Assembly: GCA_030949385.1 (NCBI GenBank)
Contig: JAUZSP010000003.1
Span: 1 to 64,000 of the forward strand
Direction of reading: 5' to 3'
Origin: Gammaproteobacteria bacterium
GTDB lineage: Bacteria > Pseudomonadota > Gammaproteobacteria > JAUZRS01
Length of the DNA stretch: 64,000 nt
A program made the position numbers and the translations under genes. The notes beneath the pieces are model-generated. The model searched no databases, was not told where the DNA came from, and saw only the letters and a list, made by a program, of their open reading frames with translations. Positions 3,606-57,531 of this stretch are shown here, piece by piece. The number at the start of each line of letters is the position of its first letter. Position 1 is the stretch's first letter.

Positions 3606-6600
3606 ATGTTAAATCGAATCATTGATCTCGGTATTGAAAATCGGCTGATGGTGCTGTTGGCGCTGATCGCCACGTTGGTCGGAGCGACCCTACTGCTGCC
3701 CAAGCTCAATTTGGATGCCTTTCCCGATGTCACCAACGTGCAAGTGCAGATCAACACCGAAGCGCAAGGGCTGGCCGCCGAAGAGGTCGAACAACTGATC
3801 ACCTTCCCCATCGAAGCGGTGATGTACGCCTTGCCCGATGTGCAAGAGGTGCGTTCCATTTCCAAAACCGGCCTGTCGGTGATCACCGTGGTCTTCAGCG
3901 AAGGCACGGACATCTACTTTGCCCGCCAACTGGTGTTTGAACGCCTGCAAGCAGCCAAAGAACAGATCCCCAACGGCATCGGCACCCCCGGAATGGGACC
4001 CAATACCTCCGGCCTTGGCCAAGTATTCCAGTACATTCTGCGCGCCGAAGAGGGTTCTAAATACGATGCCATCGCCTTGCGCAGCCTCAACGATTGGGTG
4101 GTTAAACTGCTCTTGATGCCCGTACCTGGAGTGACGGAAGTGCTCTCTTTTGGTGGCGAAGTGCGCCAATACCAAGTGCAGCTCGACCCACAACGCCTAC
4201 TGGCCTACCAACTGTCCAGTGACGATGTGGCCAACGCCATCGAAAACAACAACCGCAACGCCGGAGGCTGGTATCTGGATCGCGGTGAAGAGCAGCTGGT
4301 GATTCGCGGTGTCGGTTGGTTACGCAGCGGTCAATTGGGGCTGCAAGACATCGGCAACATTCCTCTGCTGGATGTGGACGGTGTGCCGGTGCGGGTGCGC
4401 GATGTGGCACAGATTAATTTCGGCCCTGAAATTCGTCAAGGCGCGGTCACCATGACCCTGCGTGACGCCAACGGTGAACCCAATTCTTTGGGCGAAGTGG
4501 TGGCCGGTGTGGTGCTCAAACGCATGGGAGCCAACACCAAAGCCACCATTGACAGCATCAAAGATCGTCTACCAGCGATTCAGATGGCGCTGCCCGATGG
4601 AGTGAGACTGGAAGCGGTCTACGATCAATCGGATCTGGTGGACAAGGCGGTCAGCACCGTCAGCAATGCGTTGTTGGAAGCCTTTGTTTTGATCGTCATT
4701 ATCTTAATGCTCTTTTTGCTTAATCTGCGCGCCACCTTGTTGGTACTGATCTCCGTACCGATCTCCATTTTGCTCGCCTTGATGGCAATGGCACAGTGGG
4801 GTGTTTCCGCCAACCTGATGTCTTTGGGCGGTCTGACCATCGCCATTGGCATGATGGTGGACGGCTCGGTGGTGATGATGGAACACATCTTCAGCCACCT
4901 CACCCACCCCGATGCACAACACCAAAAAGGCCGCAGCGAACCGGATCGCCACGGCATCGCCCTGCGCATTCAAGAAGCGGCACGAGAAGTGGGCAGGCCG
5001 GTTTTTTACGCCGTGCTGATCATCATCATCGTCTTTGCGCCGCTGTTCAGCCTCGAAGGGGTGGAAGGCAAACTGTTTCAACCGATGGCCATCTCCATTG
5101 TCTTGGCCATGATCGCTTCACTGCTGGTGGCACTGATCGTCGTCCCCGCGCTGGCCACCTACCTGTTTACCAAAGGGGTCAAAGAGCGCCGCAGTTGGAT
5201 TATGATTCCGCTGGAGAAGCTCTATCGGCTGCTGCTCGGCGCAGCGTTGAAAATGCGCACGCTGGTGGTGGTCGTCGCCTTGGCGCTGTTTCTCGGCTCC
5301 CTCGCTCTGGTTCCGCTTCTCGGTACTGAATTTGTGCCAGAACTGGAAGAGGGTACTATCAATGTACGCATCACCCTCGCCCCCTCTTCCAGCCTCGACA
5401 CCTCTCTTAAAGTGGCACAAAAGCTGGAAAAAGAGCTGATGACCTTCCCCGAGGTGCTCTACGTCTCCAGCCGCATTGGCCGTGCTGAGATTGGCGGTGA
5501 TCCTGAGCCGGTCTCCAATGTGGAGATCTTTATCGGCCTCAAACCCGTCTCGGAATGGACATCTGCCAACAATCGCAAGGATCTGCAACGGCTGATGGAA
5601 GCGAAAATGTCCGTGCATCCCGGTTTGTTGTTCTCCTTTTCACAGCCCATCGCCACCCGCGTCGATGAACTGCTCTCGGGGGTCAAAGCGCAGTTGGCGA
5701 TCAAACTGTTTGGCAGCGATCTACAACAACTGGCCAAAACCGGCAAAGAGATCGAGGCATTGGTTCGCCAAGTGGAAGGCACCCGTGGGGTGGAGATGGA
5801 GCAGATCGGCGGTGAAGCGCAACTCGCCATTCGCCCTGATCGAGAAGCCTTGGCACGTTACGGCATCTCCGTAGCTCAGGTGATGGATTTGGTCAGCGAC
5901 GCCATTGGCGGTCGTGAAGCCGGTCAGGTCATCAACGGCAATGAACGCTACAACATCACCGTGCGGCTGGCAGAAGAGCAGCGCAACAGCATTGAGGCCA
6001 TTCGCAGTTTGATTCTGCAAGCGCCCAGCGGAGCGTGGGTGAAACTGGGCGATCTGGCACAGGTGGAGATCGAATCAGGACCACCGCAGATTCGGCGTGA
6101 CGATGTGCAGCGACGGGTGGTGATTCAGACCAATGTGGAAGGCCGTGATATGGGCGGATTGGTCAGTGAACTGCAACAGCGCATCGCCCGTGACATTGAT
6201 CTACCCACCGGTTACAGCATTGTCTATGGCGGCCAGTTTGAAAATCAGCAACGCGCTCAAGCGCGTTTGATGGTGGTGGTGCCGCTCTCTTTGGGTTTGA
6301 TCTTTTTACTGCTCTATTTTGCCTTTCATTCCGTGGGGCAAGCGGCGCTGATCATGCTCAATGTGCCACTGGCTTTGATTGGCGGCATCGCTGCGCTCTA
6401 TATTTCCGGCCAATATTTATCCGTCCCTGGTTCCATCGGTTTTATCGCGCTGTTTGGGGTGGCGGTACTCAATGGGGTGGTGATGGTCAACGCCATCAAT
6501 CAACGCCTGAGTGGGGAAAACAATCTGCACTTGGCGGTTTTTGAAGGCGCGTTATCCCGCTTGCGGCCGGTGTTGATGACCGCCTCCATTGCCGCTTTGG

Positions 6601-44745: not shown

Positions 44746-44787
44746 GCGTAGGGCGGCACTAACCAAAGGGCAGTGCGCCGATAAAAC
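44746..44787 (+). repeat. REP-like palindromic repeat, copy 4
   Basis: GCGTAGGGCGGCACTAACC and AAGGGCAGTGCGCCGATAAAA form a variant of the repeat at 14044-14081. GGCGGCACT pairs with AGTGCGCC with small changes. Confidence 0.65.
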
Positions 44788-44813: not shown

Positions 44814-44987
44814 TCTTGCTCGTCTCCGGGTCTTGCTCGTCTCCTGGGTCTTGCTCGTCTCCGGGTCTTGCTCGTCTCTGGGTCTTGCTCGTCTCTGGGT
44901 CTTGCTCGTCTCTGGGTCTTGCTCGTCTCTGGGTCTTGCTCGTCTCTGGGTCTTGCTCGTCTCTGGGTCTTGCTCGTCATTCTCGGG
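44814..44987. repeat. Tandem array of 17-nt units
   Basis: The unit TCTTGCTCGTCTCTGGG is repeated nine times between 44814 and 44967. The first three copies have CC or CCT variants (one is 18 nt), and a 20-nt tenth copy ends at 44987. The next unit merges into the inverted repeat at 44996. The unit contains CTTGCTCGTC, the flank of the dRS3-like element. The array probably grew by slippage or unequal exchange from that flank. Confidence 0.9.
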
Positions 44988-44995
44988 TCTTGCTC

Positions 44996-45070
44996 GTCAT
45001 TCCCGCGAAGGCGGGAATCCATACAAGACGATCAAACTCTCATGTGGATTCCCGCCTTCGCGGGAATGAC
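44996..45070. repeat. Inverted pair of dRS3-like elements
   Basis: The arms at 44996-45021 and 45045-45070 are perfect 26-nt complements. Each contains ATTCCC-N8-GGGAAT, the consensus of the neisserial dRS3 repeat and similar elements of other proteobacteria. The 23-nt middle is unique. Such pairs can be mobilised as cassettes or act as recombination sites. Confidence 0.85.
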
Positions 45071-45166
45071 GGAAGTTACGGAAGTTACGGGAATGACGAT
45101 GCACTTATTTTTTAACAAACGACCTAACATCAGTTAATTAAGAGTAAATCCCCCAGTGAGAAAAAA

Positions 45167-45676
45167 ATGCTAACCCGGATTATTTTTAAAGCCAGCCTCA
45201 GCGTATTAATCATCCTAGCCGCCACCGGCTACGGCAGTTACCTCACCACCGGCCAACTGCCCTTTGGACTGGAAGGCCTGAGTGTTAAAAAAGTAACAAC
45301 TCCGCTGCAAAATCAATTCAGCAGCCTAAAAAATCAAGTTGAAAACATAACCGGCAGCGAAAAAAACAGCAGCGAAAGCGGCATTTATAAATGGCAAGAC
45401 CAACAAGGCGAGTGGCACTACGGCGACGCACCGCCCAACACCGCCAGCGCCACCCCAATGCACATTAATCTACAACAAAATGTGATTAATGCTGTGACTG
45501 CGAAAAAGCCTCAGCACGAAGAAAAACCCACAGAAACCAGCCAAGCAGAAGAACCTTCCAGCGGCTCGGCCTACAGCCCCAGCACGGTGAAAAAACTCTT
45601 CAACGACGCACAAGGCTTGCAAGAGAAACTCAATGGCCGTTTTGCGCAGCAGCAGGAGTTGTTAAAGCCGCAATAA
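45167..45676 (+). CDS. DUF4124-domain membrane-anchored protein
   Basis: The 169-residue product has an N-terminal membrane helix (residues about 8-25, uncleaved anchor or signal). At residues about 73-87 it has IYKWQDQQGEWHYGDAPP, the core of DUF4124 (YxWxDxxGxxHYSD), a small beta domain common in gammaproteobacterial envelope proteins. The C-terminus (residues 125-169) is helical and rich in Gln and Glu. Function is unknown. It precedes the chaperone-ATPase operon by 170 nt on the same strand, but nothing shows that it belongs to it. Confidence 0.75.
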   Translation: MLTRIIFKASLSVLIILAATGYGSYLTTGQLPFGLEGLSVKKVTTPLQNQFSSLKNQVENITGSEKNSSESGIYKWQDQQGEWHYGDAPPNTASATPMHINLQQNVINAVTAKKPQHEEKPTETSQAEEPSSGSAYSPSTVKKLFNDAQGLQEKLNGRFAQQQELLKPQ

Positions 45677-45846
45677 ACAACATCAGCCCTAAAAAAATCA
45701 CAACCAGTAACAATCTCTGACCAACCCAAAAACGCCCTCCTCACCCCCCTTCTCCCACCTTGCAGGGGAAATAAAAGAGGCGTATAACCAAGCCACTTTG
45801 ATCGCCCCCCTCAGATTTTGCTAAAAATAAGCCAAAGGTGTCGTCT

Positions 45847-46407
45847 ATGCTCAAATGGATACAACGATTTTTACACTGCTGGAACCACAGCAACAGCCTA
45901 AAAACGCCTTCCCAAGCCAAAACAACCTCCTCAATCAAAACCCCAAAACCGGCTGCGGTACCTAAGCCCACACCGCCTGCCATCACTCTATTTAAAGCAG
46001 AACAACGCGCCTTTGAGCAGTTCCAACAGATCAGCGAAGAGACCCAAGCGGCGCTTAAAGGCATCTTCAAAGACCGCTCCCCCAGTGGGTTTCTCGCCTG
46101 CGGTTTACAAGAAAAAAACATCCTCAGCTTCTGGGACTACTGCAAAACCCGCCTGATCGAAAACCCCGATGACGAAGCCGAGCGGCTGGCGGCGCTGTTT
46201 GCGTTCTTTTTCCAGCGTTATTTGTTGGCTTACCCCAACGCCCAAACCCAAACCGTCACCGTCGGCGAACGTTTTGACCCCCTGCAACACATCCGCACCC
46301 CCAGCAGCCCCGTCAGCGGCACCGTTAGCCGCGTGGTGCTGGCAGGCTGGATCAACCGCAAAACCGATAAAATTGTTAAATTAAGCCTAGTGGAGCTAAG
46401 CGCATGA
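45847..46407 (+). CDS. GrpE-like nucleotide-exchange protein, short form (system gene 1)
   Basis: From the ATG at 45847 the product has 186 residues. Residues 1-45 are Lys/Pro-rich, a helix follows (EQRAFEQFQQISEETQAALKG), and the C-terminal part VGERFDPLQHIRTPSSP...GTVSRVVLAGWI...VKLSLVEL follows the pattern of the GrpE beta domain (DPxxHxAV...GTVxxVxxxGY). This family opens the nucleotide pocket of Hsp70 ATPases, which fits the Hsp70-like gene that overlaps its stop by 4 nt. From about 45991 on, it is almost identical to the second GrpE-like gene; only the N-terminus differs. The assignment is by pattern and context. Confidence 0.7.
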   Translation: MLKWIQRFLHCWNHSNSLKTPSQAKTTSSIKTPKPAAVPKPTPPAITLFKAEQRAFEQFQQISEETQAALKGIFKDRSPSGFLACGLQEKNILSFWDYCKTRLIENPDDEAERLAALFAFFFQRYLLAYPNAQTQTVTVGERFDPLQHIRTPSSPVSGTVSRVVLAGWINRKTDKIVKLSLVELSA

Positions 46408-49187
46408 GTCACCCAACCCAAACCGTTCAACAAGCCCAACTGCCCAACACAGTCTTAGAAAACATACGGCCTGACCATGAAAATATACTGTCTGACTCTT
46501 ATCAACAGATCTGGGATGAAACCGAAAAAAAAGCCGTGGCCTTGATGGCAAAAACGTGGGTGACGTTCTCCCGTGAGCATCTGCTCTACGACGACCGCAT
46601 TCAAGCCCTCTGGAGTTACGACAGTAAGAAGAAACGACTTTTCACGCCAATACCATTAAATAACAGCGACAATTTAAACGCAGCTCACGAGGCCATCACT
46701 AAACAGTATGCGCACCACGGCGCGGCGATTCAACAGGCTCAGCTCAGCCCACCCACCGCCACCGAATTAAAAACCTCCCTCTACCAGCAGAGCAACACCC
46801 CCTTTGCTCTGACAAATCAACGCCCCAAGGGTCATTACAACTGGTGCTACCAAACAGAATCCAAACTGCGTGCAAAAGATTTAGATGCAGGTTGTTGGAA
46901 TAGCAACCCCTCCAGTGGACAGCTCTGCCCCTTACTGCCTTTGGGTCAGCGAGACAACCGCTTTGCCCTCAGCTCAACTGAGCGGTTGGCCGCTTGGCTG
47001 CAACACAATTTGTTGCCTGACGCACTGGCCGCTGACGACGGTTATCTCTTTCTGCTGCGCTTCAACAGCGCAGAGGCGCTGTTGAACGGCTTTTCACGCC
47101 ACCCCAGTCCAAAAACAAGACGGTTTTCTTCACACACTTGCCGAAGTTCAAGCACAACACCAACAACAGCATCATCATCGAACACCTCAAAAACGACGAC
47201 CTGCGCCGTGCCGATCTGCAAGCCCACGACGAGAAAATATTCACCGACATCGAACAAGGACACTGGGCGCTCTGCCCCAGCAACCCCGCCTCCGATCAGG
47301 CTACTTTGCCGCTTGATCCGCCCTTGGTCGCCCGCAACCCCGCCAGCGACATCAACAGCGGTGTGGTGGGCATCGACTTCGGCACCAAAAGCACCGTCGT
47401 GGTCTGCCAAAAAGGAACCATCCAAATCCAACCGATGCGTATTGGCACCGGCAACCTGAGCAACGCCATTGAAGCGCAACACTACGAAAACCCCACCATC
47501 ATGGCTTTTCATGACCTGAGCCAATTCATCAGCGACTACCAGAGCCAAGCCGGTCGCCCAGAGACCCGCTGGCACGACCTGACCGTCTCACACACCGCCT
47601 TCCGTGATTTAATGGACGGCCACTCCAGCGACTTCAGCGCCTTTTTGAGCGACTTAAAACAGTGGGCCGGCACCAGTGGCAAAAAAATCAAAGTGGTGGA
47701 TAAAAAACAGCAGATATTCGAGTTCCCCGAGTTTTTAGAACTCGACGACGACGACATCAACCCCATCGAACTTTACGCCTACTATTTGGGGCTTTACATC
47801 AACACCCCGCGCAACGGCATTTTCATGGATTATATTTTGTCCTTTCCCGTCACCTATGAACTCGCCATCCGTGACAAAATCATCCAAAGCTTTGAGCGCG
47901 GCATCAAAAAATCACTGCCCCAATCGCTGCACCAACAGCCCGAACAGATGGCCAAACTGCGGGTCAGCAAAGGTGCCAGCGAACCCGCCGCCTACGCCGT
48001 CATCGCCCTGCAAGAGTACGACTTTGAGCCAGAAGAGGATGAGCGCGTTTTTTATGGCGTGTTTGATTTTGGCGGCGGCACCACCGATTTTGATTTTGGC
48101 CTCTACCGCGACGCCTGCGAAAACACAGAATCCCGTTACGACTACGCCATTGAACATTTTGGCGCGGGTGGTGATCGTTATCTGGGCGGGGAAAACCTGC
48201 TCGCACTGCTCGCCTTTGAGATCTTTAAACACAATCAGGAAAAACTCCGCACGGCGCAGATTCAATTTACCCAGCCGCCCGAAACACCGCTTTTTTGGGT
48301 TCAGAAGCCCTGCTAAGCCCCTCCCGCGAAGCAAAAATGAACAGCAAAAATCTAATGGAGGCGCTGCGCGGATTTTGGGAGCAAGACCCCGAAAAAGCAG
48401 ACACCTATCAGAACGGCAGTTTGGAGATCAACCTGTTTAATGCCCAAGGAAACGAGCAGGCCAGTTTTGAGCTGGACATCGACGCGGAACAGATGAAAAA
48501 GACCTTATATGAGCGCATCGAACGCGGCGTGGTGAATTTCTTTGAGAGCCTGCGACTGGCCTTTTCCAACCAAGCCTTTGACCTCAAAGAGATCGACTGC
48601 GTACAGCTCTTTTTGGCCGGTAACTCCAGCAAATCGCCGTGGGTCAGCGAACTGTTCGAGCAGGAAATGGCGCGAGTCATAGAAGAGATGCAACAAGAAA
48701 ACCTCAAGGCCGATGACTTTTTAAGCTCCACCCCAGCCTGAGCAGCGATGAGCTGGATCGACCCACGGGCAAAACCGGCGTGGCCTACGGTTTGATTGAG
48801 ACCCGCCCAGGAGGTGACGTGTTGGTGATTGATCACAACGTCAAAGAGGAGATCGCCTTTAAATATTACCTTGGCCGTTCACGCAAGAAAAAATTCAAAT
48901 TGATTGTGGATCGCCACTCGCCCTACCATCAATGGATTCAATTTATTGATGCCAGTCAAACCGATTTTGAAATTTATTACAGCAGCGTTTCAGCGGTCAG
49001 CACCAATAAAATCCCCATCGGGGACAACAGCATCCAGCGTTTACGCTTGAGCATCGAGCAAGCGCACAGCAGCGCCCACGTCTATCTGCGCCCCATTTCA
49101 CCCAGCGAAATTGAGTACGTGGTGGCAGATCAAAACGGCATTGAAAGCCAAGCCTACCTCAGTGACATCCAGACGGTAGCCATTTAA
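45991..49187 (+). repeat. Direct duplication of the GrpE-like/Hsp70-like module, copy 1
   Basis: This stretch repeats at 49841-53037 with an exact offset of 3850 nt at both ends. About the first 600 nt differ at only a handful of positions. Short islands (for example 46624-46735) and the last 950 nt differ much more. The copies are in tandem with the unique N-terminal part of the second GrpE-like gene between them. Confidence 0.92.
46404..49187 (+). pseudogene. Hsp70-like ATPase with N-terminal extension, copy 1, frameshifted (system gene 2)
   Basis: The region of 2784 nt would encode about 927 residues. The Hsp70/actin-fold signature is clear: phosphate 1 GIDFGTKSTVVV (near residue 322), phosphate 2 FDFGGGTTDFDFGLY (near 554) and the adenosine motif FLAGNSSKSPW (near 736). 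About 320 unrecognised residues precede the ATPase domain and 150 follow it. Four one-base indels break the frame: near 47083, near 47133, T6 at 48291-48296 and T5 at 48718-48722. They cancel out, so the final part is again in the first frame. Copy 2 is intact at each of these places. It overlaps the GrpE-like gene by 4 nt. Confidence 0.8.
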
Positions 49188-49214
49188 ATGGATTTTTTTA
49201 ATAAGGAAAAAAAC

Positions 49215-50257
49215 ATGACTAAAACTGATTTTTTAACGTTTCTCGACGATCCTGAAGTACGCGCTAAAATCTGCGAGATCTGTGCGGAACACGCATCACT
49301 CACACGTTCTGATCCTAACCTCCTCGATGCCCTAAAAAAAGAGGGTCTACGACAAACACAACAGATCGAGCAGCAACGCAGTGAAATCGAAAACAGCCCA
49401 GTGAAAAGCAGCGCAGCGAAATTGAAAAGCAGCGCAGCGAAATTGAAAAGCAGCGCAGCGAAATTGAAAAGCAGCGCAGTGAAATCGAAAAGCAGCGCAG
49501 CGAAATCGAGCAACAACAAGACAAACTCGACGCTGAAGAAAAAACCAATACCGACCTTCAGCGCCAAGTCGATGCCCTAGAAAACGACAGCACAACGCAC
49601 ACTCAAAAAATCAATCAGCAGCGCAGCGAAATCGAGCAACTGAAAAACAAACTCGACGCTGAAGAAAAAACCAACACCGAACTCCAGAGCCAAGTCGATG
49701 CCCTAAAAAACGACTACACAGCACACAAGCAAACAATCGAGCAACAGAAAAACAAACTCGACACTGAAAAACAGACCAACGCGGACCTCCAAGACAAACT
49801 CAACAACACAGAAAAAAAATTGCACACATACGAACAGCAATTTAGCGCAGAACAACACGCCTTTGAGCAGTTCCAACAGATCAGCGAAGAGACCCAAGCG
49901 GCGCTTAAAGGCATCTTCAAAGACCGCTCCCCCAGTGGGTTTCTCGCCTGCGGTTTACAAGAAAAAAACATCCTCAGCTTCTGGGACTACTGCAAAACCC
50001 GCCTGATCGAAAACCCCGATGACGAAGCCGAGCGGCTGGCGGCGCTGTTTGCGTTCTTTTTCCAGCGTTATTTGCTGGCTTACCCCAACGCCCAAATCCA
50101 AACCGTCACCGTCGGCGAACGTTTTGACCCCCTGCGCCACATCCGCACCCCCAGCAGCCCCGTCAGCGGCACCGTTAGCCGCGTGGTGCTGGCAGGCTGG
50201 ATTAACCGCAAAACCGATAAAATTGTTAAATTAAGCCTAGTGGAGCTAAGCGCATGA
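49215..50257 (+). pseudogene. GrpE-like protein with long coiled coil, one frameshift (system gene 3)
   Basis: The ATG at 49215 follows AAGGA. Residues 1-50 (MTKTDFLTFLDDPEVRAKI) are unlike copy 1. Then comes a coiled coil of heptads QRSEIEK and two longer units around KLDAEEKTNT-LQ-QVDAL, and from about residue 205 the GrpE-like part shared with copy 1. The frame slips by one base at 49391-49396, at the beginning of the 21-nt repeats; adding one base gives a continuous frame of about 347 residues. The coiled coil may replace the GrpE dimer helix. Its stop overlaps the second Hsp70-like gene by 4 nt. Confidence 0.75.
49405..49510 (+). repeat. 21-nt tandem repeats encoding coiled-coil heptads
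   Basis: About five copies of AGCAGCGCAGCGAAATTGAAA encode the seven-residue unit KQRSEIE. Units are nearly identical in DNA, so the array is young and prone to slippage. A one-base frameshift lies at its left edge. Confidence 0.88.
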
Positions 50258-53037
50258 GTCACCCAACCCAAACCGTTCAACAAGCCCAACTGCCCAACAC
50301 AGTCTTAGAAAACATACGGCCTGACCATGAAAATATACTGTCTGACTCTTATCAACAGATCTGGGATGAAACCGAAAAAAAAGCCGTGGCCTTGATGGCA
50401 AAAACGTGGGTGACGTTCTCCCGTGAGCATCTGCTCTACGACGACCGCATTCAAGCCCTCTGGAGTTACGACAGCTCAGAAGAAACACTTTTTCACTCCA
50501 ATAACCCTCTACAGACAGAGATGATTTAATTGCAGCTCACGAGGCCATTGCTGAACACTGCGCGCACCATGAAATGACACGACAGGCTCAGCTCAGCCCA
50601 CCCACCGCCACCGAATTAAAAACCTCCCTCTACCAGCAGAGCAACACCCCCTTTGCTCTGACAAATCAACGCCCCCATTACAGCTGTTATTGGTGCTACC
50701 AAACAGAATCCAAACTGCGTGCAAAAGATTTAGATGCAGGTTGTTGGAATAAGCTCCCTCCAGTGGACAGCTCTGCCCCTTACTGCCTTTGGGTCAGCGA
50801 GACAACCGCTTTGCCCTCAGCTCAACTGAGCGGTTGGCCGCTTGGCTGCAACACAATTTGTTGCCTGACGCACTGGCCGCTGACGACGGTTATCTCTTTC
50901 TGCTGCGCTTCAACACCCTTGCGGCGCTGTTAACGGCTTTTCACGCCACCCCAGTCAAAAAACAAGACGGTTTTCTTCACACCTTGCCGAAGTTCAAGCA
51001 CAAGCACCAACAACAGCATCATCATCGAACACCTCAAAAACGACGACCTGCGCCGTGCCGATCTGCAAGCCCACGACGAGAAAATATTCACCGACATCGA
51101 ACAAGGACACTGGGCGCTCTGGCCCAGCAACCCCGCCTCCGATCAGGCTACTTTGCCGCTTGATCCGCCCTTGGTCGCCCGCAACCCCGCCAGCGACATC
51201 AACAGCGGTGTGGTGGGCATCGACTTCGGCACCAAAAGCACCGTCGTGGTCTGCCAAAAAGAGACCACCCAAATTCAACCCATGCGTATTGGTGGTGGCC
51301 AATTAAACAACGGTGTTCATGCCCATCAGTACGAAAACCCCACCATCATGGCTTTTCATGACCTGAGCCAATTCATCAGCGACTACCAGAGCCAAGCCGG
51401 TCGCCCCGAGACCCGCTGGCAAGACCTGACCGTCTCTCACACCGCCTTCAACGATTTGATGAACAGCCACTCCAGCGACTTCAGCGCCTTTTTGAGCGAC
51501 TTAAAACAGTGGGCCGGCACCAGTGGCAAAAAAATCAAAGTGGTGGATAAAAAACAGCAGATATTCGAGTTCCCCGAGTTTTTAGAACTCGACGACGACG
51601 ACCTCAACCCCATCGAACTTTACGCCTACTATTTGGGGCTTTACATCAACACCCCGCGCAACGGCATCTTTATGGATTACATTTTATCCTTCCCCGTCAC
51701 CTATGAACTCGCCATCCGTGACAAAATCATCCAAAGCTTTGAGCGCGGCATCAAAAAATCACTGCCCCAATCGCTGCACCAACAGCCCGAACAGATGGCC
51801 AAACTGCGGGTCAGCAAAGGTGCCAGCGAACCCGCCGCCTACGCCGTCATCGCCCTGCAAGAGTACGACTTTGAGCCAGAAGAGGATGAGCGTATTTTTT
51901 ATGGCGTGTTTGATTTTGGCGGTGGCACCACCGATTTTGATTTTGGCCTCTACCGCGACGCCTGCGAAAACACAGAATCCCGTTACGACTACGCCATTGA
52001 ACATTTTGGCGCGGGTGGTGATCGTTATCTGGGCGGGGAAAACCTGCTCGAACTGCTTGCTTTTGAGGTTTTCAAAAGCAACCAAAATAATCTCAGCGCG
52101 AGCAACATACAATTTACCCAGCCGCCCGAAACCAAAACATTTTTGGGGCATGAAACTCTGCTAAGCCAATCCCGCGAAGCCAAAATGAACAGCAAAACCC
52201 TGATGGAAGCCTTGCGCGGTTTTTGGGAACAAGACCCCGAGTTAGCCGAGTCTTATCAAAACGGCAGTTTGGAAATCAACCTCTTCAACACGCAGGGCGA
52301 GATGCACACCAATTTTGAGCTGGACATCAATGCCGAAGCAGATGCAGGACATTTTGTACCAACGGATCAAACGCGGAGTGGTGAATTTCTTTGAAAGCCT
52401 GCGTTTGGCGTTTTCAAACCAACAGCTCAAATTGCACACCATCAACACCATTCAGATCTTTTTAGCAGGCAACTCCAGCAAATCACCGTGGGTCACAGAA
52501 CTGTTCGAGATCGAAATGATGCGAGTCAGCGCAGAGATGCAAGAAAAAGGCATTGAGATAGATGACTTTTTTACACTCCACCCTTGCCTAAGCTCGGATC
52601 AGTTGGACAAACCCAACGGCAAAACCGGCGTGGCTTACGGCTTGATCGAAACCAGTCCCGACGGTGTTATTTTGGTCATTGACCACAACGTCAAAGAGGA
52701 GATCGCGTTTAAATATTATCTCGGACAAGAGACGAAGAAAAATTCAGAGTCGATTTTGGATCGCCAAGATGCCTATCATCAATGGGTCGAGTTTATTGAT
52801 GCCAGCCAAACCAACTTCAAACTGTTTTACAGCAGCACTTCAACAGTCAGCACCAATAACGTGCGTACCAGCGACCCCAGCATTCAATTACGACGTTTGC
52901 GCATCGAACAGACGCATGAGAATGCTCACGTCTATCTGCGCCCCATTTCACCCAGCGAAATTGAGTACGTGGTTGCGCACAGAAACGACATCGAAAATCA
53001 AACCTATCTCAGCGAGATTAAAAAGGTCAGCCTGTAA
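49841..53037 (+). repeat. Direct duplication of the GrpE-like/Hsp70-like module, copy 2
   Basis: This is the second copy of 45991-49187. Sequence is nearly identical through the GrpE-like part and the ATPase domain, and clearly diverged after about 52060. Its end abuts the start codon of the HerA-like gene. Confidence 0.92.
50254..53037 (+). pseudogene. Hsp70-like ATPase with N-terminal extension, copy 2, frameshifted (system gene 4)
   Basis: This copy also spans 2784 nt. The ATPase motifs GIDFGTKST, FDFGGGTTDFDF and FLAGNSSKSPW are all intact. The frame is broken near 50480-50530, near 50750, near 51003 and at 52334-52338 (one extra G), at places where copy 1 is in frame, and again the shifts cancel. 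The protein sequence on both sides of each break stays conserved, which argues for very recent events or base errors. The part after residue about 600 differs strongly from copy 1. The stop TAA is directly followed by the ATG of the HerA-like gene. Confidence 0.8.
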
Positions 53038-56000
53038 ATGAAAAAGCAAACAGAACACAGCGTCATTAGCCTACTCAAACAAAACCTGAGCAGAGAAAAG
53101 AACCCCACATCCAACACACACTCAATTCAAAAATACACGCCACTGAAAACCGATGAAGTGATTTTCATCCATATCGAAGAGCTGACCTTTGAGCAAGAGT
53201 CACCGCGCCGAGAAGCCTTAGAAAACATCCTCAGCACCCTGACAATCGACGGCATACAACTGGTTTATTTACTCATCGGTGATGAAAATGGGGTCTCGTT
53301 TTATTTTGCCATTGCCAAAGATAAAAACCACACCACGGCCTTGGAGCTGGATGTCGATGATATTGGCCGTTATATTTTAAAACCGAGCATTGAAGGTAAT
53401 TTCCGAGGCAGTAAAATAACCGAACAGAGTAAAAATAAAGCGCAGATCCTCGCCACCATCAACGGCATGAAACGCATCCAGCGGCTTGACGGTGTGCCAA
53501 CGGTCAATACAGAAGACGGCTCTTTTCAAGGCGTAGATCGTTTGGTGGATGTCATGATGGGCGACCAATTTGTCCTCATGGTGTTGGCCTCCCCGCTGAA
53601 TGAAGCAAGCATTGAGCAAATTGAAACCGATCTGTACGACATTCACAATACCTTGTCACCCAAAGCCAAAGAGTCCATCCAAGACAGTGAAGGCAGCAGC
53701 CTGACCAGTGGCACCAGCAAAACCTGGGGTACGTCCGACACCAGTGGCAGCAACAAGGGCAGCTCTACATCGCAGTCAACCAGCAGCTCAAAAGGCCAAA
53801 CCACCGGCAGCTCCAGTGGAGAGACCATTGGTAGATCAGATGGAGAGACCGAAGGCGAAACAACAGGAGACAGTACGGGTGTTTCAAACACTAAAACCAA
53901 AGGCACCAGTGAAAAAGGCGGTTCAAGCTCTAGCACAAATTCAGGCGCTAAAGGCACCAGCCATACAAAAAACACCGGCACTTCTACCACCAAAAACACC
54001 GGTTCTTCTGTTTCCAAAAACACTGGGCAATCAAAATCCAGCAACACCGGCAGCTCCGACAGCAGCTCCACCTCCAGCAACAGCGGCACCTCAAATTCCA
54101 AAACAACAAACAACTCCGACAGCACCAACAGCTCCAACACCACCAACCAAGGCAGCAACAAAAGCCGCGAATTCACCGACAAACTGATCAACGAATGGTT
54201 GCAATACATTGATGAGGTGCTGCTCAAACGCCTGCATCACGGTCAAAAACGCGGTCTGTTCAACGCCTGCGCCTACCTTCTCGCCAATGAAAAAGGCACC
54301 TTAATTAAACTTGGCAACACCATGAAAGCCCTCTTTTCTGGCGACGAAAACAACAGAACCCCGCTCAGGCTTAGCCCGATTCATGCTGCAAACGAAATAG
54401 CCAACATCAAAAACTTGCAGCTCTCCACCGCCAACAGCACATTGACTCAAGCGCAGCAACAGAATCAACTGCTGCACTCAAAAAACAGCCCACAATACGC
54501 CCACTGGATGTCCAGCAGTGAGTTAAGCGTGATCATGGGCTTGCCACAAAAAGAAGTGGTCGGGCTGGCGCTGAAAGAGGAGGTTGAATTTGGTTTAAAC
54601 ATCAAAAAACAAAACCTAAAACAAGAAAACAAATTACTGCTCGGTCACTTGGTACACAGCGGCGGAGCGTTAAACATCAAAGTCCACATTGATAAAGCGC
54701 ATCTCAACAAACACACCTTCGTCACTGGGGTGACGGGCAGCGGCAAAACCAGCACCTGCCTGCGCCTGCTGGACTCGGCACAGATGCCCTTTTTGGTTAT
54801 CGAACCGGCCAAAACCGAGTATCGAATTTTAACTCAAAAACACGATGATATTTTAATCTTCACCCTCGGTGATGATCGTGTGGCACCGTTTCGACTCAAC
54901 CCCTTTGAGTTTTTTCCAGGCGAAAACATTACCGCTCGGGTCGATATGATCAAGGCCACCATCGAAGCGGCCTTTGACATGGAGGCGGCCATCCCGCAAC
55001 TGATCGAGGCGGCCCTTTACCAATGTTATGAAGACTGCGGCTGGGACATCGCCAGCTCCACCAACAGCCGCTTTAATGATCCCTTCGCCGACGGCGTGTT
55101 TGCCTTTCCCACCTTGCAAGATCTGATTAATCAGACCGAAACAGTCGCCGAACAACAGGGCTTTGATGAACGCCTGAAAAAAGATTACATCGGCTCGATC
55201 AAAGCACGCCTGCAGAGCCTGCTGATTGGTGCCAAAGGCTTTATGCTCAACACCCCCCGCTCGATTAACTTCCTTGAATTGATTGAAAAAAACGTCATTC
55301 TGGAGTTAGAAGAGATCAAAAATGGCAATGAAAAATCCCTCATCATGGGCTTTGTACTGATCAATCTTAACGAGGCCATCAAACAGAAATACAAGCAATA
55401 CAAACAGCAGGGTCAAACCTTCAAACACATCACTCTGATTGAAGAGGCGCATCGGCTGCTGGCCAAATACACCCCTGGCGACAATCCGAGTAAAAAACTG
55501 GCCGTCGAAACCTTTACCGACATGCTCGCCGAAGTGCGTAAATACGGTGAGTCTTTGGTGATCGTCGATCAAATCCCCGACAAACTCACCCCCGAGGTGT
55601 TAAAAAACACCAACATGAAGATCGTCCACAAACTGTTTGCGCAGGACGATAAAAACGCCATCGGCAATACGATGGCACTGGACGATGAACAGAAACAGTT
55701 CTTATCCAATCTGGAAACCGGCCAAGCGATCATCTCTAACCAAGATTTTGCCAAACCGCTGCGGGTGAAAATCAAAGAGGTGCCCGACCTCAGCACCACC
55801 ACCACCGAGTTAATCGACGAACAGACCATCCGCAATAACGCCCTGTGTTATTATCAGCAGCGTTACAAAAAGGGCTTGATATTGGGCTTAGAATTGAATG
55901 ACAGCGAACCCTCCCTTGAGGAGATCGAACAGCATTTACAGATCAAAATCCTTGGGCTTGCCAAGGGTTGGCAACACCTCTGTTCTATAGCGGCCATTCA

Positions 56001-56244
56001 AAAAACCAGCGCCGATAATAAAGGCTTTCAGTTTGACCTAAAACAGTACCTCGAAGGCAATCGGCTCACAGGCGAGAAAAAAATCGATTTTGTGATTCAC
56101 TATTTAAAACAACGCTTTTATAAACATAAAACAAAGGTTAGTCATGATGTTTTGGCGCTGTTTATAAAAGGCATTCTCGATGGCAGCAAACAAACCTTTG
56201 AGCTCCGAGAAAAGACGCTCTTAAAAATCAGACAATCACATTAA
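53038..56244 (+). CDS. HerA/VirB4-like P-loop ATPase with Ser/Thr/Gly linker (system gene 5)
   Basis: The 1068-residue product has an N-terminal alpha/beta domain (residues 1-215), about 160 residues almost entirely of Ser, Thr, Gly, Asn and Lys (218-376), and a DUF87-type motor. Walker A is GVTGSGKTST (near 564), followed by FLVIEPAKTEYR. Walker B is ITLIEEAHRLL (near 798), and then come VRKYGESLVIVDQIPDKL and NTMALDDEQKQFLSNLETGQAII. The HerA/VirB4 group forms hexameric DNA or protein translocases. The gene starts right at the stop of the second Hsp70-like gene. It is the only large intact gene of the operon. Confidence 0.85.
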   Translation: MKKQTEHSVISLLKQNLSREKNPTSNTHSIQKYTPLKTDEVIFIHIEELTFEQESPRREALENILSTLTIDGIQLVYLLIGDENGVSFYFAIAKDKNHTTALELDVDDIGRYILKPSIEGNFRGSKITEQSKNKAQILATINGMKRIQRLDGVPTVNTEDGSFQGVDRLVDVMMGDQFVLMVLASPLNEASIEQIETDLYDIHNTLSPKAKESIQDSEGSSLTSGTSKTWGTSDTSGSNKGSSTSQSTSSSKGQTTGSSSGETIGRSDGETEGETTGDSTGVSNTKTKGTSEKGGSSSSTNSGAKGTSHTKNTGTSTTKNTGSSVSKNTGQSKSSNTGSSDSSSTSSNSGTSNSKTTNNSDSTNSSNTTNQGSNKSREFTDKLINEWLQYIDEVLLKRLHHGQKRGLFNACAYLLANEKGTLIKLGNTMKALFSGDENNRTPLRLSPIHAANEIANIKNLQLSTANSTLTQAQQQNQLLHSKNSPQYAHWMSSSELSVIMGLPQKEVVGLALKEEVEFGLNIKKQNLKQENKLLLGHLVHSGGALNIKVHIDKAHLNKHTFVTGVTGSGKTSTCLRLLDSAQMPFLVIEPAKTEYRILTQKHDDILIFTLGDDRVAPFRLNPFEFFPGENITARVDMIKATIEAAFDMEAAIPQLIEAALYQCYEDCGWDIASSTNSRFNDPFADGVFAFPTLQDLINQTETVAEQQGFDERLKKDYIGSIKARLQSLLIGAKGFMLNTPRSINFLELIEKNVILELEEIKNGNEKSLIMGFVLINLNEAIKQKYKQYKQQGQTFKHITLIEEAHRLLAKYTPGDNPSKKLAVETFTDMLAEVRKYGESLVIVDQIPDKLTPEVLKNTNMKIVHKLFAQDDKNAIGNTMALDDEQKQFLSNLETGQAIISNQDFAKPLRVKIKEVPDLSTTTTELIDEQTIRNNALCYYQQRYKKGLILGLELNDSEPSLEEIEQHLQIKILGLAKGWQHLCSIAAIQKTSADNKGFQFDLKQYLEGNRLTGEKKIDFVIHYLKQRFYKHKTKVSHDVLALFIKGILDGSKQTFELREKTLLKIRQSH

Positions 56245-56261: not shown

Positions 56262-56927
56262 ATGGGTTTTTGGAGTTCAGTTGGCGATTTCTGTAGCAGC
56301 GCCATCGAAGTGGTCAGTTCCGTCGCCTCTTCTATTGGTTCAAGCTTAGCCAAAGCTACCACCACTCTGCTTGAAATAGCCGGTCCTTATATTGGACCGA
56401 TCAGCAACATTATTCGCATCATTGGGGTCTTTCTTGATGTCCTAACGCCCAATGACAAGCCAGAAGAGCTGGGTGCCAAAGCGATGCAAGCGGAAAAAAA
56501 GCCTGAAGATTTTGACAGCAATAACGACTACATTGATTACTTACGCAACGACATAGATTTGGATACAGAAAAATTTAACAACGCCACAGATGGAGAAAAA
56601 ACGGCGTTCACTGCCGTTGGCAGTTCAATTACGCTCAAAGGCATTGAAGAGGTAAAAGGCTTTGACATCCCGCTCACCACTTGGCTTTCGCTGGCGCACT
56701 TAAAACTGGATAAAGAAAGTGATGTCGTAGAGGTCAATGCCATTCTAGACACCTTTAAAGAGGACAAATTAACGGATTTTTCCGGCTACATCGAAGGGAA
56801 ATTAGACACCAGCAAGGAATTAGAGGTCGGTGATGCCTTGGTCAATATGTACCAAGAACTGGAACCGACCTTGAGCAAAGCAGAGATCGAACAAAAAGTG
56901 ATTCAAATGGAGAAGGGGACACTCTGA
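56262..56927 (+). CDS. Unknown protein with hydrophobic N-terminal segment (system gene 6)
   Basis: The 221-residue product follows a good AAGGAG site. Residues 1-65 are small and hydrophobic, with many Ser, Gly, Ala and Ile (VVSSVASSIGSSLAK, then GPYIGPISNIIRIIGVFLDVL). This part could insert into or lie on a membrane. The rest is acidic and helical (EKKPEDFDSNNDYIDYLRNDIDLD, in part). I do not recognise a family. Its stop overlaps the next start by one base (TGATG), so it belongs to the operon. A membrane-acting effector or anchor is possible, but this is inference only. Confidence 0.6.
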   Translation: MGFWSSVGDFCSSAIEVVSSVASSIGSSLAKATTTLLEIAGPYIGPISNIIRIIGVFLDVLTPNDKPEELGAKAMQAEKKPEDFDSNNDYIDYLRNDIDLDTEKFNNATDGEKTAFTAVGSSITLKGIEEVKGFDIPLTTWLSLAHLKLDKESDVVEVNAILDTFKEDKLTDFSGYIEGKLDTSKELEVGDALVNMYQELEPTLSKAEIEQKVIQMEKGTL

Positions 56928-57439
56928 TGAGCAGCCATCACTACCTTCTGGTACAGCAAGACGGTGAAATTTCGGTCTATCATTACGCCGAGAAAACACT
57001 CACTCTGCTCAAGTTTAAAGGCGAAACCCAACAAGATTACGCCTCCGATCCTGAACGTTTTTGGCGGGCCTTTAAAGAAAAAATTGAATACCACGATGAA
57101 AAACTGGGGTTTATTGTTTTTTCCGATCAAGAAACCCTGAACATCCCTGACACCATTGTCCTTTGCGACAGCGATGATTTTCACCCAGCGGCATTAAGCA
57201 ACGTCTATGAGCTGGGCGACCTTAGCCAGCTGAATCAATTCAGCCACCCGCCTCTGGTCGAATTTGATATCGCTGCTCTTGCCAACAATGCAAAAGAGAC
57301 CGAAACCGAAGCCATCACAGCAACCAGCATCACCCCACAGGTTAAAGAAAAAACCGAGGTGATCGAGGTGGAAAATGCACCGATTCTAACCCCGCAAGAT
57401 TTTTTCACCAAAAAAACCCGCGATTATAAAAATAGTTAA
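56927..57439 (+). CDS. Unknown small protein closing the operon (system gene 7)
   Basis: The 170-residue product has an alpha/beta-looking N-terminal two thirds (HHYLLVQQDGEISVYHYAEK, DEKLGFIVFSDQETL, IPDTIVLCDSDDF) and a Thr/Glu-rich tail (residues 125-170). No family is recognised. The strand-helix pattern is compatible with a small adaptor or regulatory domain. It is coupled to gene 6 by a TGATG overlap. The operon ends here; a REP-like repeat lies 50 nt downstream. Confidence 0.6.
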   Translation: MSSHHYLLVQQDGEISVYHYAEKTLTLLKFKGETQQDYASDPERFWRAFKEKIEYHDEKLGFIVFSDQETLNIPDTIVLCDSDDFHPAALSNVYELGDLSQLNQFSHPPLVEFDIAALANNAKETETEAITATSITPQVKEKTEVIEVENAPILTPQDFFTKKTRDYKNS

Positions 57440-57489: not shown

Positions 57490-57531
57490 TTTTATCGGCG
57501 CAATGCCCTTTGGTTATTGCGCCCTACGCGG
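57490..57531 (-). repeat. REP-like palindromic repeat, copy 5
   Basis: TTTTATCGGCGCAATGCCC, TTTGG and TTATTGCGCCCTACGC are the reverse form of copies 1 and 4. It lies between the operon end and the convergent hemW and can form a stable stem. Confidence 0.75.

Follow-up and report, generated by a model that had tools for sequence, protein, structure and literature searches.

The window, a stretch of 64,000 nt, belongs to contig 3 of a 2.87-Mb gammaproteobacterial genome that was assembled in 10 contigs. On its forward strand it carries a GrpE-like gene and an Hsp70-like gene, a second pair of the same kind, a gene for a HerA/FtsK-type ATPase, and two genes for smaller proteins (Table 1). The GrpE-like/Hsp70-like module is present twice in the same orientation, as had been read from the letters before any database was searched: copy A lies at 45990-49187 and copy B at 49840-53037, and their 3176 aligned sites are 90% identical. 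The repeat begins within the GrpE-like gene, and the N-termini of GrpE-like A and B are unrelated: that of A is short, whereas that of B is a coiled coil with 21-nt repeats. In relatives, homologues of GrpE-like B are intact and have 250-312 amino acids.

Table 1. Genes of the locus and segments of the repeat, in window coordinates; partner positions are in copy B.
Feature	Position	Strand	Remarks
GrpE-like gene A	45838-46407	+	intact, 189 aa; N-terminus unique up to about 45990, GrpE-like part shared from there on
Homogenised tract 1	46008-46625	+	partner 49858-50475; identical runs of 217, 65 and 272 nt; dS 0.03, then 0
Hsp70-like gene A	46404-49187	+	frameshifted; from alignment to three intact relatives
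Island 1, probable relic of old divergence	46623-46735	+	partner 50473-50584; dS 1.38, dN 0.34
Homogenised tract 2	46733-47414	+	identical runs of 102, 63, 160, 163 and 139 nt
Mini-islands within tract 2	46827-46841, 46902-46907, 47068-47084	+	
Island 2	47414-47487	+	partner about 51261-51334; directly after the IDFGTKST motif; dS 1.04, dN 0.26
Homogenised tract 3 (core of nucleotide-binding domain)	47488-48203	+	dS 0.08; identical runs of up to 200 nt
Micro-islands within tract 3	47560-47618, 47821-47845, 48046-48076	+	
Unconverted end (last third of nucleotide-binding domain and beta-rich C-terminal domain)	48204-49187	+	partner 52051-53037; dS 1.03, dN/dS 0.20
GrpE-like gene B	49188-50257	+	coiled coil with 21-nt and 63-nt repeats, then shared GrpE-like part
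Hsp70-like gene B	50254-53037	+	frameshifted; from alignment to intact relatives
HerA/FtsK-type ATPase with serine-rich insert	53038-56244	+	1068 aa, intact; DUF87, NF033849 ser_rich, CedD and HerA models
221-aa protein, start MGFWSSVG, N-terminus rich in small residues	56262-56927	+	homologue in 23 of 24 complete operons
170-aa protein	56927-57439	+	operon partner in part of the relatives; phmmer matches in, e.g., L043, L047 and L098

The identity between A and B is very uneven: thirteen identical runs of 60-272 nt alternate with short islands, and between 48204 and 49187 only 69-82% of each 100 nt is identical. The sequence-only reading had described near-identical tracts, an island at 46624-46735 (50474-50585 in B), and a strongly different 3' end, and the alignment of the copies bears out all of these. 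It also places further small islands at 47068-47084, 47415-47482, 47560-47618, 47821-47845, and 48046-48076. The sliding comparison that had been proposed gives a clearly non-uniform divergence; none of 2000 shuffles clustered the identical runs as strongly as we observed. The offset between the copies had been given as exactly 3850 nt, which is wrong: it starts at 3850 on the 5' side and goes through 3852, 3849, 3848, 3847, 3848, and 3849 back to 3850, because of 1-nt and in-frame indels.

We compared the codons of A and B in a frame-respecting way and estimated dS and dN for each segment. Between the copies, the GrpE-like part has a dS of 0.03. The Hsp70-like gene begins with 73 codons at a dS of 0, the two segments after island 1 (to 46826 and to 47062) are at 0 again, and 47488-48202 is at 0.08. 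By contrast, dS is 1.38 in the island at 46623-46735, 1.04 in the island at 47414-47487, and 1.03 in the last ~980 nt (48203-49184). The dS of the islands is similar to that of the 3' end (p = 0.71) and far from that of the tracts (p = 1e-16). Because island dS matches the C-terminal part while the tracts are near zero, the islands seem to be leftovers of the original divergence. These values support the earlier suggestion of gene conversion between the copies.

The same analysis does not support the idea that conversion homogenises the ATPase while the C-terminal region diversifies. First, with a dN/dS of 0.20, the divergent 3' end is under purifying selection (the islands have about 0.25), which speaks against adaptive diversification and also against the suggestion that the C-termini diversified to recognise different partners. 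Second, the conversion boundary at 48203 is inside the nucleotide-binding domain, 5' of the adenosine motif AGNSSKS; since this motif falls in the divergent part, the boundary cuts through the ATPase domain. Third, the N-terminal domain is the most exchangeable part of the protein among relatives, yet it too is homogenised between A and B.

Our best explanation, to which we give a probability of about 75%, is that an old tandem pair was partly overwritten by recent gene conversion. The GrpE-like/Hsp70-like pair would have been duplicated in tandem long ago, and the copies would have diverged under purifying selection to a dS of about 1. More recently, homologous recombination between A and B (intralocus gene conversion) would have overwritten most of a central 2.2 kb that begins halfway through the GrpE-like gene and reaches two thirds of the way into the ATPase domain of the Hsp70-like gene. 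The short islands, both of the dissimilar GrpE N-termini, and the divergent 3' end would have been spared. Donor and recipient were presumably A and B themselves. The tracts may lie mainly in the conserved core because conversion needs long matching stretches, which a slowly evolving core would supply. The genes would be intact in the living cell, and the roughly ten 1-nt indels (see below), all within the duplicated unit, would be residual errors of the assembly. A and B are sisters in the tree of the ATPase and in the tree of the C-terminal part, and their C-termini are 71% identical, as compared to at most 53% for any known relative. A young duplication of the whole unit is disfavoured because the coiled coil before B would have been copied with it, and the N-terminus of A is unrelated.

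Gene conversion is a known process, and what is unusual here is how clean it is at synonymous sites. In concerted evolution by gene conversion, a conserved core is homogenised and the ends diverge. The rhs genes are reported as an example of tandem paralogues that evolve in this way (PMC2935791). In contrast to this pattern, the divergent end of the window's pair is under purifying selection, and we observed no tip displacement.

About ten single-base indels, which the sequence-only reading had not noticed, disrupt both Hsp70-like frames and GrpE-like B; their positions differ between the copies. We used frameshift-aware alignment to intact relatives (Sulfurovum L042, 920 aa; Mariprofundaceae L033, 918 aa; and Campylobacteraceae L041). 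The net frameshifts are at about 47077-47136 (47084/47136), 48285, and 48718 in Hsp70-like A and at about 50480-50525, 50755, 51000, and 52337 in Hsp70-like B, and a coding model puts one at about 49393 in the coiled-coil part of GrpE-like B. The recovered frames, about 5.5 kb, contain no stop codons in either copy. Over 10.5 kb of flank, a comparison with the sister species gives 478 substitutions and 0 coding indels. Inside the identical A/B tracts, 1-nt indels and substitutions occur at about equal frequency, which is unlike natural decay. Because of the clean flanks, this parity, and the lack of stop codons, we read the frameshifts as technical: they look like residual consensus errors of a hard repeat. 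Poor assembly across the genome is ruled out: the flanks are clean against the sister species, and most of the coding model's other frameshift calls, over about 395 kb, fall at ordinary gene junctions.

Alternatively, the module could be real but decaying, with both Hsp70-like genes and one GrpE-like gene being pseudogenes. This would compete only with the intactness of the genes and is compatible with conversion. The frameshift sites do differ between the copies, and homologues elsewhere are intact at 920-1080 aa. Furthermore, the frameshifts at 48718 and 52337 sit where the copies differ by 22%, and short-read polishing should work in such sequence, so real decay keeps some probability. Nevertheless, we think that decay is unlikely, given the open frames, the dN/dS of 0.20, the frequency of indels relative to substitutions in the tracts, and the intact genes downstream in the operon.

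The mosaic itself is most simply explained by intralocus conversion of an old pair, with allelic import as the main rival. Under allelic import, the tandem copies are young, and one of them received its islands and 3' end by homologous recombination with a related system of another strain. Horizontally mobile systems do recombine, this would give the same mosaic of dS, and the locus is variable: the sister species at 95% identity has other sequence beside hemW. However, it would require imports on both flanks, at least two more for the inner islands, and replacement of a GrpE N-terminus, and no known relative is nearer to either C-terminus than A and B are to each other. We consider it improbable. 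We would be more surprised if the tandem arrangement were an assembly artefact, in which allelic variants from different strains, or a partly mis-polished copy, were joined and the indels mark the joins. Although the roughly ten frameshifting indels are found only in the duplicated unit, with several at tract edges and clean flanks around them, the GrpE N-termini differ between the copies, the unit is flanked by unique genes, and many other genomes have tandem Hsp70 pairs too, isolates and one complete plasmid among them. Also, sequencing error cannot produce a dS of about 1. Finally, a mosaic without conversion, due to strong conservation of the ATPase and faster evolution elsewhere, can be dismissed: the ATPase is indeed the most conserved part at the protein level in all paralogue pairs and orthologues, but dS rules this out as the cause, as protein constraint does not explain why synonymous sites track the mosaic (0 to 0.08 versus 1.0 to 1.4).

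The earlier assignment of the proteins as GrpE-like and Hsp70-like holds at the level of fold. For the Hsp70-like protein, Pfam models give no match and the NCBIfam DnaK models give only E = 0.03 to 0.25, far below the cut-off. A profile of 57 Hsp70-like relatives matches only Hsp70 chains in the PDB (E = 4e-5), and the AF2 model of a Sulfurovum homologue (pLDDT 89.7) matches full-length DnaK in Foldseek (E = 1e-20). As for a possible C-terminal substrate-binding domain, the alignment has about 640 columns, compared to 520-610 residues in the DnaK structures, and the C-terminus is beta-rich, but the TM-score is low. An actin-like nucleotide-binding domain with phosphate-1, phosphate-2, and adenosine motifs is present, and the columns of IDFGT, DFGGGTTD, and AGNSSKS are invariant or nearly so in the family. 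By its predicted fold, the protein is a genuine, remote relative of Hsp70 that lies outside the curated DnaK families. As for the AF2 model of GrpE-like A (pLDDT 88.7), its best Foldseek matches are GrpE and GrpEL1 (E = 2.9e-4, probability 0.99-1.00), and five of 37 GrpE-like homologues match PF01025 (best E = 9e-5). At the fold level only, the predicted structure has the helical dimer stalk and beta-wing of GrpE.

Compared to DnaK and GrpE, the Hsp70-like protein shares the nucleotide-binding fold, the motifs IDFGT, DFGGGTTD, AGNSSKS, and GKTGVAFG, a beta-rich C-terminal domain that aligns to full-length DnaK, and a GrpE-like gene directly upstream. It differs in having only 13-15% identity and, across the family, an extra exchangeable N-terminal domain of 250-400 aa. 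There is also a coiled coil before the GrpE-like part, no DnaJ was seen, and the operon includes a HerA-type ATPase. We scanned ten members for the exchangeable N-terminal 250-400 residues: the domain is Lcl_C-like in the Acinetobacter pair (below the Pfam cut-off) and WD40 in Ghiorsea, and no family was recognised in the remaining scanned members.

We collected relatives with one scan of a genome collection and smaller searches. GrpE-like, Hsp70-like, and serine-rich HerA-type ATPase genes occur together at 24 relatives' loci, 23 of which have the MGFW-type small protein as well, and the operon spans four phyla (Pseudomonadota, Campylobacterota, Bacillota, and Fusobacteriota). Seven of the 24 complete operons have two Hsp70-like genes, including those of Aliivibrio, Sulfurovum, Fusobacterium gastrosuis, and an Acinetobacter plasmid. 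Many genomes from a different class of the same phylum have a single version of ~960 aa. Because the paired copies are sisters or form one small clade in the trees (in the window, Ghiorsea, Epulopiscium, Sulfurovum, Acinetobacter, Helicobacter, and a Lachnospiraceae group), the Hsp70-like gene was doubled independently in at least six lineages. In the literature that we searched, mostly papers available without subscription, we did not find a description of this operon. To us, the conserved, uncharacterised operon around the pair is more interesting than the conversion itself, and the main use of our finding is that an Hsp70/GrpE-like pair is locked to a HerA-type ATPase operon over four phyla, with at least six doublings.

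We looked for a similar mosaic in 11 other paralogue pairs; it is clear only in Ghiorsea and hinted at in L049. In the Ghiorsea pair, 15 of the 30 differences in 2273 nt fall within 124 nt, and the WD40 N-terminus is only 85% identical, so this pair appears to be a second, independent example. Since most other pairs (L041, L051, L065, L069, L091, L098, and Acinetobacter) lack low-dS tracts, conversion is not the rule in the family. If the operon is a conflict system, the window's converted pair would be a natural set of swapped segments for mapping the function of each part.

Some operons vary in other ways. In Ghiorsea (L043, 8858-17213), the WD40-Hsp70-like gene is tandemly duplicated together with a 144-aa gene, and the second copy is interrupted by a transposase-like gene. 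On the Acinetobacter piscicola plasmid (L010, 8110-13923), the two Hsp70-like paralogues with Lcl_C-like N-termini lie beside HEPN-domain and dynamin-like genes. A Campylobacteraceae MAG (L041, 5038-6027) has the HerA gene as fragments only, and vibrios have two MGFW genes around the HerA gene.

From its context, the operon may have a conflict (defence-like) role. This context consists of WYL-domain neighbours, copies on plasmids, a variable insertion site, and the matches to HerA models. WYL-domain proteins are the commonest family among the operon's neighbours, in five neighbourhoods; in Photobacterium, a WYL-domain gene is directly upstream. These neighbours and the variable site fit a conflict system but do not prove one. 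In such a mobile system, the Hsp70-like protein would be reset by its GrpE-like exchange factor and would serve a HerA-type motor and a small protein that looks membrane active as their ATP-driven sensor or assembly switch. We have low confidence in this role. It is possible, though we tend to doubt it, that the operons represent a widespread and undescribed chaperone-motor conflict system, composed of a GrpE-like coiled coil, an Hsp70-like switch with an exchangeable N-terminal recognition domain, a serine-rich HerA motor, and a small pore-like protein. The Hsp70-like gene would be duplicated repeatedly, and conversion would keep the ATPase cores alike, so that both proteins could serve one exchange factor or a mixed assembly, while their ends differ. 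If the operon is a conflict system, then two Hsp70-like subunits rather than one would often be favoured.

Two known groups of systems are similar. Type III CoCoNuT systems have the Hsp70-like protein CnuD and an EccE3-HerA extension, so an Hsp70-like protein, an ATPase of the FtsK/HerA superfamily, and a small helical protein share one predicted operon there as well (PMC11090510). Operons of the window's type differ by their constant GrpE-like partner. No McrB/CnuB GTPase, CnuC, or VWA gene was found among the module's genes that we searched, and with these core genes absent, membership in CoCoNuT is ruled out. GAP1-N2 GTPase-centred conflict systems also include HSP70 and GrpE as operon partners, sometimes with a second HSP70 gene (PMC7159879), but we found no GTPase, FNIII, or DnaJ component in the window's module.

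The site of the module is variable. Neither the Hsp70-like nor the HerA genes occur in a sister species of the same genus, whose DNA is about 95% identical. This species has an unrelated gene on the hemW side (L151, G001:C192, 10541-10879) that is absent from the window's genome, and because a different gene lies beside hemW, we consider this a variable (cargo) site. The contigs of the sister species end at 45241 and shortly after hemW, and the comparison thus covers the cargo on the hemW side. A phage origin is ruled out, as there was no relative in a phage collection and only distant PHROG matches, and no structured RNA in the region matched Rfam. Just upstream of the module, at 44814-44998, is a tandem array of 10.6 copies of a 17-nt unit (TCTTGCTCGTCTCTGGG), with clearly fewer units in the sister species, and a 34-nt palindrome (44995-45071) adjoins it. 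A 31-nt inverted repeat flanks the module, with arms at 44756-44786 and 57490-57520 that are 94% complementary and 12.7 kb apart.
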